A DNA stretch of 64,000 nucleotides from an uncultured Bacteroidia bacterium (GTDB taxonomy: Bacteria > Bacteroidota > Bacteroidia > Bacteroidales > UBA932), in assembly GCA_902801885.1 (NCBI GenBank), contig CADCJX010000009.1:487-64486 (forward strand), written 5' to 3'. This document shows, in pieces, positions 5,188-38,462 of this stretch. Numbering within the stretch: position 1 is the first letter of the stretch; every line of letters starts with the position of its first letter. The translations under genes and the position numbers were made by a program. Below the pieces are notes generated by a model that did not search any database, was not told the DNA's origin, and was given only the letters and a program-made list of their open reading frames with translations.

Positions 5188-8100
5188 ATGAGTAATTTCA
5201 GGATATTCGTAGAGAAAAAAACAGGATTCCAGGTAGAGGCTGAAAGCCTTCGCTCCGAACTTAATGAGAATTTGCAGCTTCAGTTGCGGACTCTCCGCCT
5301 ACTCAACGTCTACGACCTGTTCGGCTTCACTCCCGAGCTTTTGGAGAAAAGCCGTTACAGCGTTTTCGGCGAGATCGTCACGGACGAGGTTACGGACGAA
5401 GTGGAAGGGATGGACAAGTACATCGCAGTCGAGTATCTCCCTGGTCAGTTCGACCAGAGGGCTGCTTCTGCGGTGGACTGTGTCCACCTGATCGATCCCA
5501 AGGCCGAGATCAACATCAAAAGTTCAAAACTCATCATTGTCGACGAAGACACTGACAAGGGCACTCTCGAACGGATTAAGCACTACTTCATCAATCCCGT
5601 CGAGTCAAGGGAGAAGGATCTCGGGAAACTTTCAGACACAGAGCATGCAGCCGTGACGCCGGTCCCGGTACTGGAAGGCTTCCGTTCCATGAAGGGAGAG
5701 GAACTCAAGGCATATTGCAAGAAGATGGGTCTGGCGATGAACGAGGATGACCTCGCCGAAGTGGTAAAGTATTTTACCGAGGAAGGCCGCGATCCCAATG
5801 AGACTGAACTCCGCATCCTGGACACCTACTGGAGCGACCACTGCCGGCACACTACCTTCACTACGGAACTGGAAGACATCCAGATCGAAGAGTCCTTCAT
5901 CAAGGAAGACATCGAAGGTACAATGAACCTGTACCTGAAGATGCGCAAGGATCTTGGCCGCGAGGCCAAGGGCCTCAACCTGATGGACATGGCCACAATC
6001 GGAGCCCGCTACCTTCGCAAGGCAGGCAAGCTCGACGACATGGAGGTCAGCGAGGAAAACAATGCATGCAGCATTTTCATCGATGTCGATGTCGTGCCTT
6101 TCGAGAACTCGGAGCAAAGCGACGCAGGGAGTTTGAGGGGAACGCCCCTCAATCCCCCCGGGGGGCGCAGTGGGGCGGATGAACATCAACAACGTTGGTT
6201 GTTGATGTTCAAGAATGAGACACACAACCACCCTACTGAGATAGAACCTTTCGGAGGTGCAGCCACCTGTCTCGGTGGAGCCATCAGGGATCCCCTTTCA
6301 GGGCGTTCGTACGTCTACCAGGCGATGCGCGTAACCGGAGCCGGGGACATCTACAAGCCGGTCGCCGAGACAATCCCCGGAAAGCTTCCCCAGAAGGTCA
6401 TCACCCGCAAGGCTGCGGCCGGTTATTCAAGCTACGGCAACCAGATCGGTCTGGCCACCACCCATGTCAGGGAGATCTTCCATGACGGTTACACCGCCAA
6501 GAGGATGGAGGTCGGTGCAGTAGTCGGAGCGGTCAAGGCTGACAATGTCAGGCGCGAAAGCCCGAAGCCCGGAGACGTGGTCCTGATGCTTGGCGGCCGC
6601 ACCGGACGCGATGGCATCGGAGGTGCCACCGGATCATCCAAGGAGCACACCGAAGAATCCCTCGAGACCTGCGGAAGCGAGGTCCAGAAGGGAAATCCGC
6701 CGGAGGAAAGGAAGCTTGAAAGGTTGTTCCGCAGGCCGGAAGTAACCTCCCTTATCAAGAAATCCAACGACTTCGGAGCAGGCGGAGTGAGCGTCGCCAT
6801 CGGAGAACTCACTGCCGGTCTTGACATCTACCTCGACAGGGTGCCGGTGAAATACAGCGGCATGAACTCAACGGAACTTGCGATCAGCGAGTCTCAGGAG
6901 AGGATGGCCGTCGTAATCGAGGCCAAGGACGAGGAAAAGTTCAAGGAATATTGCCACTCGGAGAACATAGAGGTAACCCACGTTGCCGACGTAACTGACA
7001 CCGAAAGGATGAGGATGTACAATGGTGGCAAGCTGGTCGTCGACCTCAGGCGGGACTTTATCGACAGTGCCGGTGCGAAACACTATTCGAAGGCAATCAT
7101 CGGAGCGGTAGAGGGCACAGATCCTTTCTTCCGCGACATTCCCGGGAAGAACCTCAAGGAAAAGATGTTCGCCAACCTCCAGGATCCCAATGTCACAAGC
7201 CAGAAGGGCCTGATCGAGATGTTCGATTCGACCATCGGCCGCTCGACAGTACTGATGCCTTTCGGTGGCGAGCTGCAGACCACAGAGACCCAGGTCTCGG
7301 TCCAGAAACTCCCGGTCGACGGATTCACTTCCACCGCCAGCATGATGGCCTTCGGCTTCAATCCCGATCTCTGCGACTGGAGCCCCTATCACGGTGCAGC
7401 ATATTCATTCATCGAAGCTTGCAGCAAGATAGTCGCAGCCGGTGGAGACTGGCGCACGATGAGATTCTCCTGCCAGGAATATTTCGAAAGGATGACTTCC
7501 GACCATCACACCTGGGGCAAGCCTGCAGCCGCCCTCCTCGGTGCCCTGAAGATGCAGGAAGCTTTCGGTCTTCCTTCCATTGGTGGCAAGGATTCGATGA
7601 GCGGCTCATTCGAGACCGAGCACGGTCCCATCCATGTCCCTCCGACCCTCATAGCCTTCGGTATCACCCCTGTGAAGGTGGATGACGTAATCTCCCCGGA
7701 ATTCAAATGGGAAGGCGACAGGCTCTACCTCGTAAGGCATACCCCGCTCGAGAACAGGATGCCGAACGTCGAGCAGCTAAAGAAGAACTGGAACAATATT
7801 CATGAAAAGATTGCTGACGGCACCATCGTGGCGGCCTGGTCCATCGGATTCGGCGGGGTTGCGGAAGCGCTCTGCAAGATGAGTTTTGGCAATGCGTTCG
7901 GATTCGACGTGAACCTTGATGAAGAAGACCTCTTCAATCTGTCCTACGGTTCCATCCTGATTGAGACCGACGGGCAGGTCAGCTTTGACAATGCTGTCGA
8001 GATCGGTACGGTTACATCAGGAGAGGATGGGAACGTCCGCGTCAATGGGACTTCCATCTCGATCTTCGAACTCATGGACTTCAACGGATCCCTCTTCGAA

Positions 8101-10772: not shown

Positions 10773-13730
10773 CTACTTCACAATTACAATATTAGGTACG
10801 ACCCGGGCTCCCTCGTGGTCGTACTTTTTATTGTCATAGGGATAGTTGATTATTCCGGTCTTGTCGGTCCAGAGGGTTGAGGAACCGCCACCGTCAAGGT
10901 TGATGGCGTCTTCAAGCCCCAGGATACGGCAAACAGTTGCAAGCTCCGGGATGCTCATTCCGTCGGCGTTGCCAGGGAATCGCCCATCCACGACGGCCAT
11001 GTAGACCATCCCGTCAGCATCCCAGCCCATGAAGGTCCTTGGATGACGCATCGTAAAGAAGGATGCATCCGGGAAAGCCGGGACCTTGCCACCCTTCATG
11101 AGGATAGGGCCGGAGGCCAGGCACTGCTTGTAATCGAGCCTGTAGTGTTCAGTCAGGGTGCTGTCATAAGGGAATATCTCGAGCTGGTGCCCGCTCCCGT
11201 CTTTAACCGCAAGGACTCCGTTGGAGCGCTGCAGCTCAGTGGAAGGAGTCTGCCCGACCACTTCCCCGTCGATTGAGAAGAAGGTGTGGGGGATGAGGCG
11301 TCTCATGTTGAAATAGCTCCCATTCAATCCGATACGCGCATTATTCCGCATTGCAAGGGTGTCAGTTGTCGAAGAAAGCTCACCCGGAGCATGGACAAAA
11401 GAGGTAGACATGCTGGAAGCAGGGTACCTGGCCAAACTGATGCTCTGCGTTGTACCATGGAATGGGAACTGGGCATGGGTGGTCTGGGCACCGTCCCCGA
11501 TGTCATTCCACTTCCACCCTGCCGTATTCCATTCTTCAAGATCGGAGGGACAGACGGCTCCCCATTCCTTGTTGGGAAGGCTTCCCATTTCTAGTACCAG
11601 GATACCACCGGCCATGATGTCTTCATGCTTGATCCATGGTCCGTCGAGGGCAGTACCGTTCAAAGTCGCACTCTGGATGTACTTGCAGTCATCAGACACG
11701 TTCTTCGCGATGATCTTGAATATATTCCCGTTTGATAGTTTGATCTCGGCCTCGTCGAACACAGGGCTGCCGATCGTGTACAGAGGTTCGCCTGGAGTGA
11801 CAGGATAAAGGCCGAGCGAGGAGAAGACCACGAAGGAAGTCATTCCTCCTCCGTCCTCATCGCCGGGAACTCCCATCAGGTCGTCCCTGAACCAGGTGTC
11901 CAGCATCTGGCGTACCCTCTTCTGGGTCTTCCAAGGTGCTCCGGCATAATTGTAGAGATAAGGGACATGGAGAGAAGGCTCGTTGGCCATCGAGAACTGT
12001 CCCACGTTGCCGGTGTGGTCTGGAAGTTTAGCAAAAAAAGAGTACTTGCTTCGGCCCAGAGGGGTGGCGAACATCCTGTCGAGTTCCTTGCAGAAGCGCT
12101 CAGGGCTCCCCATCAGGGCAATCAGGCCGGGAATGTCGTGCTGCACATCCCAGCGGTAGACCCAGGCGTTGTTTTCGTCATAGTATTCCCTTGCCCCCAT
12201 TCCTCCGGGGAAGTTGTAGTCTATGTCTGGGATGAAGTTCCCTTCCTTGTCACGCGGATGGAAGAAGAGGGTCTCGGGATTGAAAAGCTTCTTGTAATTG
12301 GCGGACTTTTCAAGGAACCAGGCAGCATCCCTGCCCTGTCCTGCAGCATCTGCAAGCTTGGAAAGGGCCCAGCAGTCATAGGCTGTCCCGAGGCTCACGG
12401 CAACCGGCTGGCGCTTCTCAAAGCCATGGACATTAGGATCGGTCTCCGCTTCCCCCTCGCGAAGGGCAGGGATATAACCGTTCTCCCAGTAGAAATCATC
12501 AAGCCAGCCTGCAGGCTTGCCGCTCCATGGTGCCAGGGTCTTCTCGGCCAACGCCCTGCGTCCGGCTTCATAGGCGGCAGGGACATCGATTTTAAGGCCT
12601 TTAGCCAGGGCATCGGCAAAAGAAGGGATCGCGTGGTTGCTGTTCATCCTCCTTGAATCTCCGCTGACTTCCGGAAAGGTCGGCATCCAGCCGTTACCCA
12701 TCTGGTCAGCCATCTTTAGGAAGGAAGAAAGGATATTCTCCTCCAAAGGCTGATCCATCAGCGTACGGAGCGGATGAGCGGCCCTGTAGGTGTCCCAAAT
12801 CCAGTCATCAGTGTAGAAAGGAGTGCCACCATCCTCATGGACAGCATTGTCGAATCCGCTCCAATAACGGCTGTCTTCACTCATGCAGACAGGGCGTTCG
12901 AATGTGCGGTAGTATGACGTGTAGAACACCCTTTTCCGGTTCAAGGGCCCTTTCACGGCAATCCTGCCGAGGGTTTCGTTCCAGATCCTGCGGCCTTCAG
13001 CAGCAAGGGCGTCGACGTCATAGTCTTTAATCTCTCGGCGAAGGTTCTTGCCAGCCTGGGCGGCATCTATGAAGGAGACCCCGTAGCGAAGCCTGACGGA
13101 AGGTACGTCGAAGCGCAGGATCACCCAACTCTGCCTGCCGTTGCCGGCGGTGTCGACCTTTGCAGGAGCTACTTCAGGTTCCAGATGGAGATAAACCTTG
13201 GTTTCGTCCTTGACTCTCTGGCAGCCCTCTACAGCACCCCCATCCCATGAGACCGTACCGTCCATGCTGGCCAGGATTATATTCAAAGGACTGCCGCCTT
13301 CGAGTGAATATATGGCACTCTGATGTGAAAGAGCGTACTTTGCGGTCACGGCTCCGTCATCGAGGGTCACGTCGAATGAATATGGTGTCAGGTGCTCGTT
13401 GTCGTAGGATACAGGTATTACAGGTTTGTCATTCTGAGCGAAGCGAAGAATCTCTCTCCCCGTCGTCACTGACAGCTTGAAAGCCGAGCGCTCACGATGG
13501 TTGGTAACGATTATAGGAAGTCCGTTCAGGTACTCTGAAGTGTAGTCAGAGCGTTCCGGGTAGACCCTCAGCATCGAATTGGGCAACTGCACCGTAGGGA
13601 AGGTCGGCACCAGGAGATGACTGACGTTACCTGCATAAGGATTGACATAATCCACCGGGTCCGTAGCCAGGTCGCATCCTGCTACCAGAAGCGATACCAG
13701 AATCAATACGTTTGAAAGAAATCTATTCAT
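10773..13730 (-). CDS. GH92 alpha-mannosidase fused to a phosphodiester glycosidase domain
   Basis: A 985-residue predicted lipoprotein (LLVAGC lipobox at about residue 19). Residues about 25-700 are a GH92 calcium-dependent exo-alpha-mannosidase: DYVNPYAG at the N-terminus, ENNAWVYRWDVQHD, NEPSLHVPYLYNYAG and the catalytic-base loop GVPGDEDGGGMTSF. Residues about 740-985 are a NAGPA-type phosphodiester glycosidase (uncovering-enzyme family), with GLNGSYFNMR and the signature AINLDGGGSSTLW. The pair suggests removal of mannose and of sugar-phosphate caps from one glycan, which is inference. An extra REILRFAQND segment (about 93-103) is encoded by a dispersed repeat. A 27-nt palindrome lies upstream of the start. 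Confidence 0.88.
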   Translation of the reverse strand: MNRFLSNVLILVSLLVAGCDLATDPVDYVNPYAGNVSHLLVPTFPTVQLPNSMLRVYPERSDYTSEYLNGLPIIVTNHRERSAFKLSVTTGREILRFAQNDKPVIPVSYDNEHLTPYSFDVTLDDGAVTAKYALSHQSAIYSLEGGSPLNIILASMDGTVSWDGGAVEGCQRVKDETKVYLHLEPEVAPAKVDTAGNGRQSWVILRFDVPSVRLRYGVSFIDAAQAGKNLRREIKDYDVDALAAEGRRIWNETLGRIAVKGPLNRKRVFYTSYYRTFERPVCMSEDSRYWSGFDNAVHEDGGTPFYTDDWIWDTYRAAHPLRTLMDQPLEENILSSFLKMADQMGNGWMPTFPEVSGDSRRMNSNHAIPSFADALAKGLKIDVPAAYEAGRRALAEKTLAPWSGKPAGWLDDFYWENGYIPALREGEAETDPNVHGFEKRQPVAVSLGTAYDCWALSKLADAAGQGRDAAWFLEKSANYKKLFNPETLFFHPRDKEGNFIPDIDYNFPGGMGAREYYDENNAWVYRWDVQHDIPGLIALMGSPERFCKELDRMFATPLGRSKYSFFAKLPDHTGNVGQFSMANEPSLHVPYLYNYAGAPWKTQKRVRQMLDTWFRDDLMGVPGDEDGGGMTSFVVFSSLGLYPVTPGEPLYTIGSPVFDEAEIKLSNGNIFKIIAKNVSDDCKYIQSATLNGTALDGPWIKHEDIMAGGILVLEMGSLPNKEWGAVCPSDLEEWNTAGWKWNDIGDGAQTTHAQFPFHGTTQSISLARYPASSMSTSFVHAPGELSSTTDTLAMRNNARIGLNGSYFNMRRLIPHTFFSIDGEVVGQTPSTELQRSNGVLAVKDGSGHQLEIFPYDSTLTEHYRLDYKQCLASGPILMKGGKVPAFPDASFFTMRHPRTFMGWDADGMVYMAVVDGRFPGNADGMSIPELATVCRILGLEDAINLDGGGSSTLWTDKTGIINYPYDNKKYDHEGARVVPNIVIVK
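13425..13454 (-). repeat. Short dispersed repeat (copy inside the GH92 gene)
   Basis: A 30-nt segment translated in the gene's frame as EILRFAQNDK. It is nearly the same sequence as 10291-10318 in cysS but is read there from the other strand. Peptides such as ILRFAQND and SEAKDL recur in predicted proteins of many bacteria because of a widespread repeat of this type (recalled, not searched). Confidence 0.7.
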
Positions 13731-23066: not shown

Positions 23067-23930
23067 ATGCAAGCAAGGCACGCATTCATAAAAGGCCTCA
23101 AGGGCTTTGGGATATTTTACCGCCTGGAAGACTTGCTGGTATTCTACACTATCGTCAGCGTCACCGTCCATAGGATAGGGTTGAAAGTTCTGGCATTCTG
23201 CCCAATGTTCAACCACGTTCATTTTCTGTTCAAGGAAACCTCCCTGCATGATTTACGTTGTTTTATCCATCGGATTACCTCTGTTTTCGCAAGAGAGTAT
23301 AATGTTCGATATGAGAGAACAGGACCATTGTTCCAAAGTCCTTTCGGCAGTTCAATCAAGAGAGGAATAAAGATAATAATGGGCTGCATAGCATATGTGT
23401 TCAATAATCCTGTTGCCGGAAGGATGGTCAAGACCGCCTTGGAATACAGATGGAATCTCCTGGCTTATCATGACAATCACAATCCATTCTCAAATAAACT
23501 CCGAAAAGACCATTGCCGGAACGTGATGAGATCTGCGTTAAGGAAAGTCGATTACTTCTACAACAATGGGAAATATTTGTCATACAGCGCGCTAAAAGAT
23601 CTCTTCAAAGGTTTGGACAAAGATGAAAGCAATCAACTTATCGACTACATAATCTTCAAGTATAACTTCCTCGCTTACAACGATCTGGTAGAATTGTACG
23701 GAGATTTCGGGAAATTGATTACAGCTGTAGAATCAAACGCAGGATCGGAATTCGATCTTGAGGATGAATACGGTGACCATTCATGCTACCAAGAGATGCT
23801 CGCCATAGTCAAATCATTAGGTTATAAAGGATCAAGCCTCAACTTTGAGAAGCTCTCAGAAGACTCGAAGGACAGTCTCTTCTGGATACTTAAGAATCGG
23901 ACTCACGCAAGCCCTTCGTCTATATATTAA
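23067..23930 (+). CDS. REP-associated tyrosine transposase (RAYT, Y1/HUH family)
   Basis: A 287-residue protein of the IS200-like Y1 transposase superfamily, RAYT branch. The HUH metal motif is HVHFLF (in CPMFNHVHFLF, about residue 52) and the catalytic-Tyr helix is IAYVFNNPV (about residue 112), matching the YxxNNPV pattern of RAYTs. The C-terminal half is long and charged with no known domain. Such enzymes cut REP hairpins as single-stranded DNA and are usually domesticated single-copy genes. The stop codon overlaps the right 79-nt repeat, which carries a perfect 14-bp hairpin. No inverted terminal repeats of an ordinary insertion sequence are seen. Confidence 0.85.
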   Translation: MQARHAFIKGLKGFGIFYRLEDLLVFYTIVSVTVHRIGLKVLAFCPMFNHVHFLFKETSLHDLRCFIHRITSVFAREYNVRYERTGPLFQSPFGSSIKRGIKIIMGCIAYVFNNPVAGRMVKTALEYRWNLLAYHDNHNPFSNKLRKDHCRNVMRSALRKVDYFYNNGKYLSYSALKDLFKGLDKDESNQLIDYIIFKYNFLAYNDLVELYGDFGKLITAVESNAGSEFDLEDEYGDHSCYQEMLAIVKSLGYKGSSLNFEKLSEDSKDSLFWILKNRTHASPSSIY

Positions 23931-24002
23931 GCAATCAGACGGTCCCAAAATCGGGACCGTCTGATTATTCAATTAGCTAGTAATAAAACATTTACATAAC
24001 AG
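23924..24002 (+). repeat. REP-like direct repeat, right copy (79 nt)
   Basis: Same ends and length as 22898-22976. The hairpin here is perfect: AATCAGACGGTCCC (23933-23946) with its complement (23953-23966) and a 6-nt loop. It begins seven bases before the end of the transposase stop codon and may also end its transcript. Confidence 0.8.
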
Positions 24003-27042: not shown

Positions 27043-27498
27043 ATGGCCAAGCAGAAATCGCATAAAGTGGAGATCCGGAACAAAAAGGCATCGTTCGATT
27101 ACGAGTTTCTCGAGACTTACGAAGCCGGGATTGTCCTGGTGGGAACGGAGATCAAGTCCATAAGGATGGGAAAGGTCTCCCTGGTGGATTCGTTCTGCTA
27201 TTTCGCCGGCAACGAGCTGTTCGTCAAGGGCATGAACGTGGCGAAGTATTTCTGGGGTTCATGGGGCCAGCATGAGCCGCTCAGGGACCGCAAACTGCTC
27301 CTGACCAAAAGGGAGCTCCGTCACCTTCACCAGGCTGTGAAGGAAAAGGGACTCACTATCGTGGCCGTCAAGCTGTTCATCAATGACGAAGGCTTTGCAA
27401 AACTCGTGATCGCCCTGGCAAAGGGAAAGAAGGTTTTCGACAAGAGGGCGACCATCAAGGAGAAGGACATAAGGCGCGAAATGGAGCGTGGTGACTAG
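27043..27498 (+). CDS. smpB: SsrA-binding protein SmpB
   Basis: 151 residues; partner of tmRNA in rescue of stalled ribosomes. Conserved segments: [26 protein letters not shown], the central SFCYF, and the basic C-terminal tail ([19 protein letters not shown]). An earlier in-frame TTG exists at 27037, but the ATG at 27043 gives the typical [11 protein letters not shown] start. miaA begins one base after the stop. Confidence 0.97.
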
Positions 27499-27499
27499 C

Positions 27500-28594
27500 A
27501 TGGGAAGGAACCGTCAGAACAAGTTCAGGGAAGCCATCCCGATTCCTCCCCCGGCACCTTTGCCGGAGGCGGAAGAGATCGACGTGAAGTCTGTCTTCAA
27601 TGAATATGTCTCCGGCTCCATCGACCTGATCGTCGTCCTCGGGCCCACCGCCTCAGGCAAAACTCGCTACGCCGTAGAATTGGCCCGGCAGCTCGGAGGT
27701 ATGGTACCCTCCGCAACCGTGGCCACCCTCGGCCACGTAAGAGGGGGGACCGGAGCGGAACGAAGTGAAGCGAGCGGTGGGGCCGAGCGAAGCGAGGCGT
27801 TGTCGGAGGGTACCATACCTCCGAGCTGTGAGATATTGTCTGCGGACAGCAGACAGGTCTACAGGGATATGACAATCGGGACGGGGAAGGATCTGGATGA
27901 ATACGGCGACGTGCCGTACCACCTCATCGATATAGTTCCGGCAGGGACCCGTTTCGACCTTTACCAATGGCTTCAAGCCTTTGAAGAGGCATACCAGGAC
28001 ATCCGTAGCCGCGGCAGGATTCCTATCCTCAGCGGCGGGACAGGACTGTACATCCAAGCGGCAATCAACGGCTATTCCCTCCCCCAGGTCCCACCGGATG
28101 AGGAACTCAGGGAGGAACTTGAGCAATATGGCATCGAGGAGTTGATCGAAAAGCTGGCTGAATACGGCCCTTTGCCTGACGAAGGTGTACTGCAAAGCAA
28201 GAGGAGGGTTATCAGGGCCCTGGAAGTAGCTGTTTATCAAAGCAAACAGCCTGTTGACAAGATCGAGGTCAAACCTAAGAAGGCCTTCTGCATCGGGACC
28301 CTCGTCAGCCGTGAGGAAAGGAACGCCCGGATTGATGCAAGACTAGACGCCAGGCTGCAGGGCGGCCTCATCGAAGAAGTCAGAAACCTGCTTGACAGTG
28401 GTATCAGGCCCGAGGACCTCATGTACTACGGCCTTGAGTACAAGTTCGTAACCCAGCACGTGCTGGGCATACTCAGCTACGAAGAGATGCGCCTTCTCCT
28501 TGGCAACGCCATCCATCAGTTCGCCAAGAGGCAGATGACCTGGTTCCGCGGGATGGAAAAGGACGGCATAAAGATCCATTGGACAAACGTTTAA
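27500..28594 (+). CDS. miaA: tRNA dimethylallyltransferase with an in-frame insertion
   Basis: 364 residues; adds a dimethylallyl group to A37 of tRNAs that read UNN codons. The P-loop GPTASGKTR, DSRQVYRDMTIGTGK, the HLID segment and SGGTGLYIQA are present. The family is normally about 300-310 residues. Here there is an N-terminal extension of about 45 residues rich in Pro and Glu, and about 43 extra residues between RQLGG and EILSADSRQ (about 66-108) encoded by a palindromic insertion. That place lies in the nucleotide-binding core just before the substrate-contacting DSRQ, so activity may be affected. A GTG at 27488 is in frame but overlaps smpB. purE follows after 13 nt. Confidence 0.93.
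   Translation: MGRNRQNKFREAIPIPPPAPLPEAEEIDVKSVFNEYVSGSIDLIVVLGPTASGKTRYAVELARQLGGMVPSATVATLGHVRGGTGAERSEASGGAERSEALSEGTIPPSCEILSADSRQVYRDMTIGTGKDLDEYGDVPYHLIDIVPAGTRFDLYQWLQAFEEAYQDIRSRGRIPILSGGTGLYIQAAINGYSLPQVPPDEELREELEQYGIEELIEKLAEYGPLPDEGVLQSKRRVIRALEVAVYQSKQPVDKIEVKPKKAFCIGTLVSREERNARIDARLDARLQGGLIEEVRNLLDSGIRPEDLMYYGLEYKFVTQHVLGILSYEEMRLLLGNAIHQFAKRQMTWFRGMEKDGIKIHWTNV
27690..27827. repeat. Palindromic insertion element inside miaA
   Basis: A perfect 24-bp inverted repeat bounds it (27690-27713 and 27804-27827), each arm including the host bases AGCTCGGA or their inverse. Inside are a 6-bp GTGGCC/GGCCAC hairpin and two GC-rich units of the GAGCGnA.CGA type that translate as GAERSEA twice. 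The frame is kept throughout. The whole could fold as a roughly 138-nt hairpin in the mRNA. Confidence 0.75.
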
Positions 28595-38396: not shown

Positions 38397-38433
38397 CAAA
38401 AAAAATGTTCCTGACGGTTTCCCGTCAGGAACA
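38397..38433 (-). terminator. Terminator of the ribosomal/rpoA operon
   Basis: A perfect 11-bp stem (GTTCCTGACGG/CCGTCAGGAAC, 38407-38417 with 38422-38432) with a 4-nt loop is followed on the minus strand by eight T residues, 38 nt after the rplQ stop. Confidence 0.9.
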
Positions 38434-38462
38434 AATTTACCGATAATCCTTCAGATTATCAA
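38432..38462 (-). promoter_or_regulatory. Promoter and operator candidate for the GH43-GH127 operon
   Basis: On the minus strand, TTG (38460-38462), a 20-nt spacer and TAAATTTG (38432-38439) fit the Bacteroidota consensus. The spacer contains an inverted repeat GATAATC-5 nt-GATTATC (38442-38460), a possible regulator site. The predicted transcript would start inside the rplQ terminator stem. Confidence 0.4.

Follow-up and report, generated by a model that had tools for sequence, protein, structure and literature searches.

A dispersed palindromic element, in frame in miaA and other conserved genes of Bacteroidales, with arms and core orientation probably governed by template switching

How can a long, perfect palindrome lie in frame within a conserved enzyme gene, and what keeps its two arms complementary? 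Protein-coding palindromes are best known from Rickettsia, where their movement and the upkeep of the palindrome are unclear. The question is raised here by the miaA gene of an uncultured gut bacterium of the Bacteroidales, which lies in the window, meaning the whole stretch of 64,000 nucleotides that was analysed. The present genome is labelled G000, and other G numbers denote related genomes. The features of the locus are listed below.

27488..28594, plus strand: miaA, tRNA dimethylallyltransferase ORF, 368 aa from GTG, with an ATG at 27500
27701..27829, plus strand: insert in miaA, 43 codons (MVPSA...PPSC), flanked by QLGG and EILSADSR, delimited by reading of the ORF and by short orthologues
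27689..27713, plus strand: left arm of a perfect 25-nt inverted repeat, its first 11 nt being host QLGG codons
27804..27828, plus strand: right arm, exact reverse complement of the left arm, from the inverted-repeat search

The insert in miaA and its inverted repeat

The ORF at 27488-28594 runs open across the insert, and its product matches Pfam IPPT (PF01715) over residues 123-355 (E 7.8e-58). A first-pass annotation of this DNA had described about 43 residues added in frame between QLGG and EILSADSR, with GAERSEA occurring twice in the translation, and both observations hold. Alignment to solved structures maps the extra residues to positions ~29/30 of the MiaA structure 2qgn; the insert is placed between the P-loop-aligned stretch, together with the residues behind it, and the EILSADSR stretch of MiaA. 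Since the frame is kept, RNA-level excision of the insert is not needed, which argues against a need for self-splicing (as a group I or II intron or an IStron). The annotation had also spoken of a preserved frame in an essential-type gene. The frame is indeed preserved, but the term 'essential-type' wants caution, because the genome contains a second, distant MiaA homologue (G000:C13, 37% identity). The existence of short orthologues rules out that the insert is an old domain feature of MiaA.

The arms are complementary at 25/25 positions and are spaced 90 nt apart, so that the inverted repeat is perfect, as annotated, but 25 nt long (27689-27713/27804-27828) and not 24. It takes in host bases, as had been noted: the left arm contains the stretch CAGCTCGGAGG, the host codons for QLGG. 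When the window was scanned for inverted repeats (exact seed of 12, within 250 nt), the miaA repeat was the longest, the runner-up having 21-nt arms with 86% complementarity. When 27500-28000 was shuffled 200 times with dinucleotides preserved, no exact inverted repeat (span 40-160 nt) exceeded 11 nt, against 25 nt observed, which rules out a chance palindrome. Folding is strong both as RNA (z -7.44) and as DNA (z -7.85), with 0/200 shuffles equal to either; the single long hairpin first envisaged needs amending only in its interior, which is a branched core. Further short inverted repeats recovered by the same scan of the window lie at 38401-38438, 6180-6211 and 12503-12520.

A dispersed element with a conserved core

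The miaA insert represents one copy of a palindromic element that is dispersed, non-autonomous and tolerated in frame in conserved genes. When 27680-27840 was compared by BLAST with the whole of G000, 32 matches were obtained at E<=10, 20 of them at E<1e-8 with the query itself counted. Besides the self-match, what the strong matches share with the query is the core (mostly positions 43-121), and they barely extend into the arms. At miaA the core comprises the following parts.

27715..27802, plus strand: multicopy conserved core, 88 nt in the alignment (BLAST copies, alignment, covariance model)
27719..27736, plus strand: stem GTGGCC/GGCCAC with loop A-CCCTC (loop CCCTC at 27726-27730), from the covariation count
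27726..27745, plus strand: pairing of CCCTC (27726-27730) with GAGGG (27741-27745), 96.4% of cells paired
27749..27778, plus strand: variable hairpin H2, closing ACCG/CGGT, from alignment and structure scoring
27782..27798, plus strand: variable hairpin H3 (GCCGAGCGAAGCGAGGC), two pairs with two-sided changes

Over the 22 aligned G000 copies the core is 66-88 nt long, with the consensus ACCACT-GCC-A-CCCTC-GGC-n-GAGGG-GGGACC-[H2]-GGTGGGG-[H3]-GGT. A second core subfamily reads GAGGGAGGGGCCC-[H2]-GGGAGGGG, and the GTGGCC/GGCCAC subfamily accounts for 2/22 of these copies. In the GTGGCC/GGCCAC stem, 100% of cells are paired; the outermost counted pair occurs as UA, GC and AU, and the other three counted pairs are invariant. 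The CCCTC/GAGGG helix, which together with the stem before it would make an H-type pseudoknot, is near-invariant with zero two-sided changes, and its support is thus conservation, not covariation. Across the named structure, 94.5% of cells are paired as against 87.4% in shuffles and at most 53.2% in slid controls, and there are 38 cells with two-sided changes versus 11.0 in shuffles; further pair types show no excess (16 versus 15.9). The conserved core is accordingly best described, at the level of predicted structure, as a putative pseudoknot followed by two variable hairpins. Rfam had no match over the core in seven loci (21,523 bases), the sole match lying outside it at 19.9 bits (cut-off 44), and a known structured RNA family was dropped on this ground.

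A covariance model built on the 22 G000 copies detects about 26 copies in G000 (22 with fewer candidates scored) and 33 in G066. By the same model the genus, perhaps Candidatus Cryptobacteroides, has the element in 34 of its 61 sampled genomes and lacks it in 27; across the order it occurs in 3 of 198 genomes, G000 among them. Of the other two carriers, one is from the same family but a different genus (2 matches) and one is from a different family (8 matches); in the latter four copies were read, with arms alike. At least 80 public genome records contain the core pattern; among those listed, all are titled Bacteroidales, Bacteroidia or Candidatus Coprenecus, and many come from ruminants. A phage or plasmid origin was rejected, as the exact core pattern does not occur in the viral contigs and the plasmid and phage collections were blank by blastn. 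No earlier description of the element in Bacteroidales was found in the open-licence PMC literature, which omits most subscription papers.

Long open frames contain 55 of the 94 copies scanned (15/25 in G000), compared with 293 of 385 random windows, and the other 39 copies lie outside such frames. Besides miaA, the G000 hosts are genes for an aminotransferase class III, RsmF, IspH, PLD, RecQ, MATE, a periplasmic binding protein (two copies), a semialdehyde dehydrogenase, PDH E2, mannose-6-phosphate isomerase, GH3, FtsK and DnaX. In each orientation one element phase dominates the reading (20 and 17 of the 55 in-frame copies). The miaA frame is open with the core either way, giving a GAERSEA-type peptide in one orientation and a SLRSAPPLASLRSAPVPPL-type peptide in the other.

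Arms and core orientation at orthologous sites

Among the 27 genomes in which the miaA orthologue was read, nine contain the full core, oriented as in G000 in four (G000, G176, G168, G066) and reversed in five (G096, G387, G170, G301, G186). G017 and G321 have the right part of the core only, adjoining another insert, and the remaining 16 are without core. Of 17 readable ispH genes (G068 excluded), 5 are filled, 1 holds an apparent remnant and 11 are empty; the argC/asd-like gene is filled in 2 and lacks the element in 12 (n=14), and the pdhC stretches of G096, G073, G066 and G020 have no core match. The first-pass annotation had suggested a mobile element and had reasoned that an insertion filled in all relatives, with no empty sites and no further copies, would speak against one. 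The opposite was found, namely that this one genome has about 26 copies and that orthologous sites, miaA included, exist without the element. Where an arm stands without a core (miaA of G033, G114 and G423; ispH of G066), the site may either be an empty one or have lost its core by deletion. Most related genomes are drafts in many contigs, and because there is one genome per species, a recent insertion is invisible in this set.

Most copies run past the core into arms that pair with each other and vary by locus. Arm pairing lies above the 99th percentile of cross-copy pairs in 81 of 110 distinct copies and below it in 29; 59 of 69 public-record copies pass this arm null, as do 58 of the 68 that are new with respect to the first set. 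The inner arm is common to members of a subfamily, and the outer arm is not. Ten orthologous sites were compared between genomes (220 pairs), using every fetched copy with a core match and oriented flanks. The median complementarity of the arms within a genome is 0.79, versus a between-genome identity of 0.61 for the same arm; both within-genome values exceed both between-genome values in 144 of the pairs, and the cores are opposite in 119. In a 151-pair set, which omits miaA of G301 and G186, GH3 of G033, G017, G186 and G213, ispH of G321 and the aminotransferase gene of G176, the respective medians are 0.83 and 0.625, both within-genome values are higher in 125 pairs and cores are opposite in 83. 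G301 and G186 have mosaic arms at miaA (0.67, 0.61), and the arm values for GH3 of G017 and ispH of G321 (0.36, 0.42) are unreliable, their cores being shortened in the profile (~52/88 positions).

Differences between arms are mostly matched on the other side: in the ungapped comparable pairs of the 151-pair set, which are non-independent, 78 were two-sided versus 34 one-sided. Identity between genomes is 0.63 for arms versus 0.66 for flanks, with the arm below the flank in 84/151 pairs; the arms thus diverge about as much as their flanks and are not hypervariable.

The orientation of the core changes against this background. In miaA of G096, G387 and G170 the core is opposite to that of G000, and because these opposite cores sit between arms 82-86% alike, the comparison points to inversion of the core in place. 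At pdhC, the cores of G321 or G017 are opposite to that of G236 between flanks 91-94% alike and arms only 0.57-0.61 alike, which is not a plain inversion and perhaps reflects allele exchange or a second insertion. Parsimony on flank trees for the copies of the 151-pair set, in which some branches are weak, gives a minimum of three orientation changes at miaA, four at pdhC, four at GH3 and two at MATE; part of the GH3 changes are likely to be separate insertions. At GH3, G213 (L242, G213:C50) and G000 (L015) show 100% identity in flanks and element, while the miaA genes of this pair are only 73% alike, an identity that may stem from recent transfer or from bin contamination.

Other inserts occupy some of the same places. 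The miaA loop of G017, G186, G321 and G213 (L032, L172, L174, L177) has in-frame inserts of a second family (GACAGCCGGCTTCAGCCGGCGCGCCGAAG..., or one base off), that of G186 adjoining the first element, and the loop of G026, G032 and G024 (L067, L070, L079) has another palindromic family (GCGTGCTACCCCCCTGGCCGCAGGGGG...), with arms again differing. A palindromic insert consisting of GGCGGCAA..., GCGCCTGGGCGGACATTTACCCGG or its inverse, and ...TTGCCGCC is found in MATE and aminotransferase genes of G073, G409 and G301 (L131, L211, L256), and a repeat of the GATTCTTCGCT...CTCAGAATGACA type in the aminotransferase gene of G096 and at an intergenic site of G066 (L254, L154).

Maintenance, movement and comparison with known systems

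The preferred reading, to which a probability of roughly 0.7 is given, is a dispersed element whose arms stay complementary and whose core flips through polymerase template switching, under selection for frame and fold. After insertion, DNA polymerase would switch templates between the arms and so homogenise them; the same switching would invert the spacer, i.e., the core, and selection would purge copies that break frame or fold. Both effects, arm homogenisation and spacer inversion, are attributed to template switching between inverted-repeat arms, coding DNA included, in two reports (PMC8604942, PMC8794818), which give inverted spacers of 2-5 bp; here, in contrast, the spacer is a dispersed element ~90 nt long. 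Template switching is favoured because it predicts co-changing arms and flipping cores without an element-encoded enzyme, and it appears to be the best explanation of both features.

The arms might instead arise at insertion, if fold-back synthesis, starting at the core's end, copied the host flank into the second arm and gave A-core-A'-B in one step, later changes being secondary. Four comparisons have the expected form. In miaA, G033 reads GAGGGAGGTGTCCCCTC followed by TGG, and in G168 this left arm is followed by the core, the reverse complement of the arm (one mismatch) and TGG; G114 and G423 have a left arm only, resembling that of G170. At the argC-like site, core-less G423 reads TTTTGAC followed by TGTGAC and filled G096 reads TTTTGAC...GTCAAAA; at the intergenic site L012, core-less G096 reads GTGAAAGA followed by AAAA and filled G000 reads GTGAAAGA...TCTTTCAC. 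All four, however, may be deletions of filled sites between short direct repeats. The clean ispH empties show no arm, at two sites just 7-8 nt are host-derived and the inner arm is common to subfamily copies, so that a one-step origin of the arms seems unlikely. Similarly doubtful is a combined scheme in which the element carries the inner stem only, makes the outer stem at each target by inverted copying of adjacent host sequence and then persists as a frame-neutral hairpin in essential genes, repaired and flipped by template switching and thereby giving two in-frame peptides. Reversed cores could also be separate events, the linkers being hot spots hit repeatedly either way. This fits the other palindromic inserts that further species have at these miaA, aminotransferase and MATE sites, the GH3 copies from different core subfamilies and the differing arms of the closest opposite pairs at pdhC, but the GTGGCC/GGCCAC subfamily occurs either way round in miaA, with arms that are 82-86% alike, and repeated insertion is improbable as the general account.

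Slightly less credible again is a selected RNA stem, i.e., a hairpin with a function at the RNA level, whose arms are kept complementary by compensatory selection and not by mutation bias. Selection of this kind would leave core flipping unexplained; moreover, presence is patchy (27/61 genomes have none), element-free sites are common and Rfam is blank over the core in seven loci, against which stand the strength of the stem, the two-sided changes and the 39/94 copies outside long open frames. Palindromes are error-prone in assembly and library work, and most of the relatives are many-contig drafts. Identical arms and core nevertheless recur in separate genomes (miaA of G387/G170 and G176/G168; L014 of G000/G096), miaA is open in both orientations and paired arms are present in many public records; an assembly or library artefact caused by the palindromes is therefore highly implausible.

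Among known systems, the closest in behaviour appear to be the Rickettsia palindromic elements (RPEs; Ogata et al., 2000), which two papers describe as multi-copy palindromes of ~105-150 bp, located in frame within conserved genes and between genes, with the peptide tolerated and, per review, a 12-bp terminal inverted repeat (PMC2229807, PMC10969869). The element behaves like these: it too is a short, multi-copy palindrome, in frame in unrelated conserved genes and also between genes. The first-pass comparison with RPEs, in-frame tolerance included, is borne out by behaviour (15/25 scanned G000 copies in long open frames, in conserved families), the likening being one of description and not of sequence comparison or membership. 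It differs from RPEs in belonging to Bacteroidales, in its branched and putatively pseudoknotted core, in its largely locus-specific arms and in the occurrence of the core in both orientations at one site. Family-wide terminal inverted repeats of the RPE type were not found, the outer arms being locus-specific and the inner part common within subfamilies, nor were conserved ones of the MITE type, as arms vary between loci. Direct target-site duplications were not evident by eye at the miaA, ispH, argC-like and other compared pairs, whose flanks are too diverged to show them clearly. The outer arms, being unrelated between loci, provide no common recombinase site of the inverton type, a statement that applies to outer arms only. 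Long perfect inverted repeats within protein genes are also known from nematomorph mitochondria, with arms that both code for conserved residues; the abstract of that study mentions no dispersed core, unlike the element described here (PMC6649704).

Coding palindromes are thus found in a second lineage, in many genomes and dozens of copies, with filled and empty sites and both orientations, through which insertion, arm repair and inversion become traceable by comparison. The element offers a natural multi-locus system for studying bacterial template switching and a route for short peptides into conserved proteins (IspH, FtsK, DnaX, MiaA), with two readings at miaA, one per orientation.

Movement might follow a single-strand DNA route in trans, for which the RAYT-like Y1 transposases that these genomes encode are perhaps the agents, although as candidates they are weak. 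One such gene is present in the window.

23067..23930, plus strand: RAYT-like Y1 transposase ORF, 287 aa, PF01797 at 25.4 bits (cut-off 23); candidate mobiliser only, unlinked to the element

The RAYT model NF047646 scores 31.2 bits on this ORF, under its cut-off of 80. REP/BIME sequences are described as short, structured repeats that RAYT (Y1) transposases are believed to mobilise in trans (PMC3733652, PMC6006769). The present element resembles them as a short structured repeat and in its co-occurrence with RAYT-like genes across genomes (31/34 element-bearing versus 15/27 element-free genomes; Fisher p 0.0022, uncorrected for phylogeny or completeness), but it is longer, is often intragenic and does not flank the Y1 genes. 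Within ~1-1.5 kb of Y1 genes (30 loci, 27 distinct places) a core was found at one place, ~1 kb off; G033 has one more, ~1.5 kb from its Y1 gene, and the total is about the chance expectation. G000 (99% complete) has 0 RVT_1 matches, and a reverse-transcriptase route was rejected (reverse transcriptase in 11/34 element-bearing versus 8/27 element-free genomes, p 1.0). GNA DNA triloops were likewise set aside as a sign of single-strand selection, the crude count (37/90) being too weak. Directly behind the Y1 ORF of the window lies a short inverted repeat (23926-23973), and in G066 (L277, from ~1220) a tandem array whose unit contains ATGTGTCCGGGGC(C/T)GAGGGACATGTGGGGCATATA directly follows a Y1 gene.
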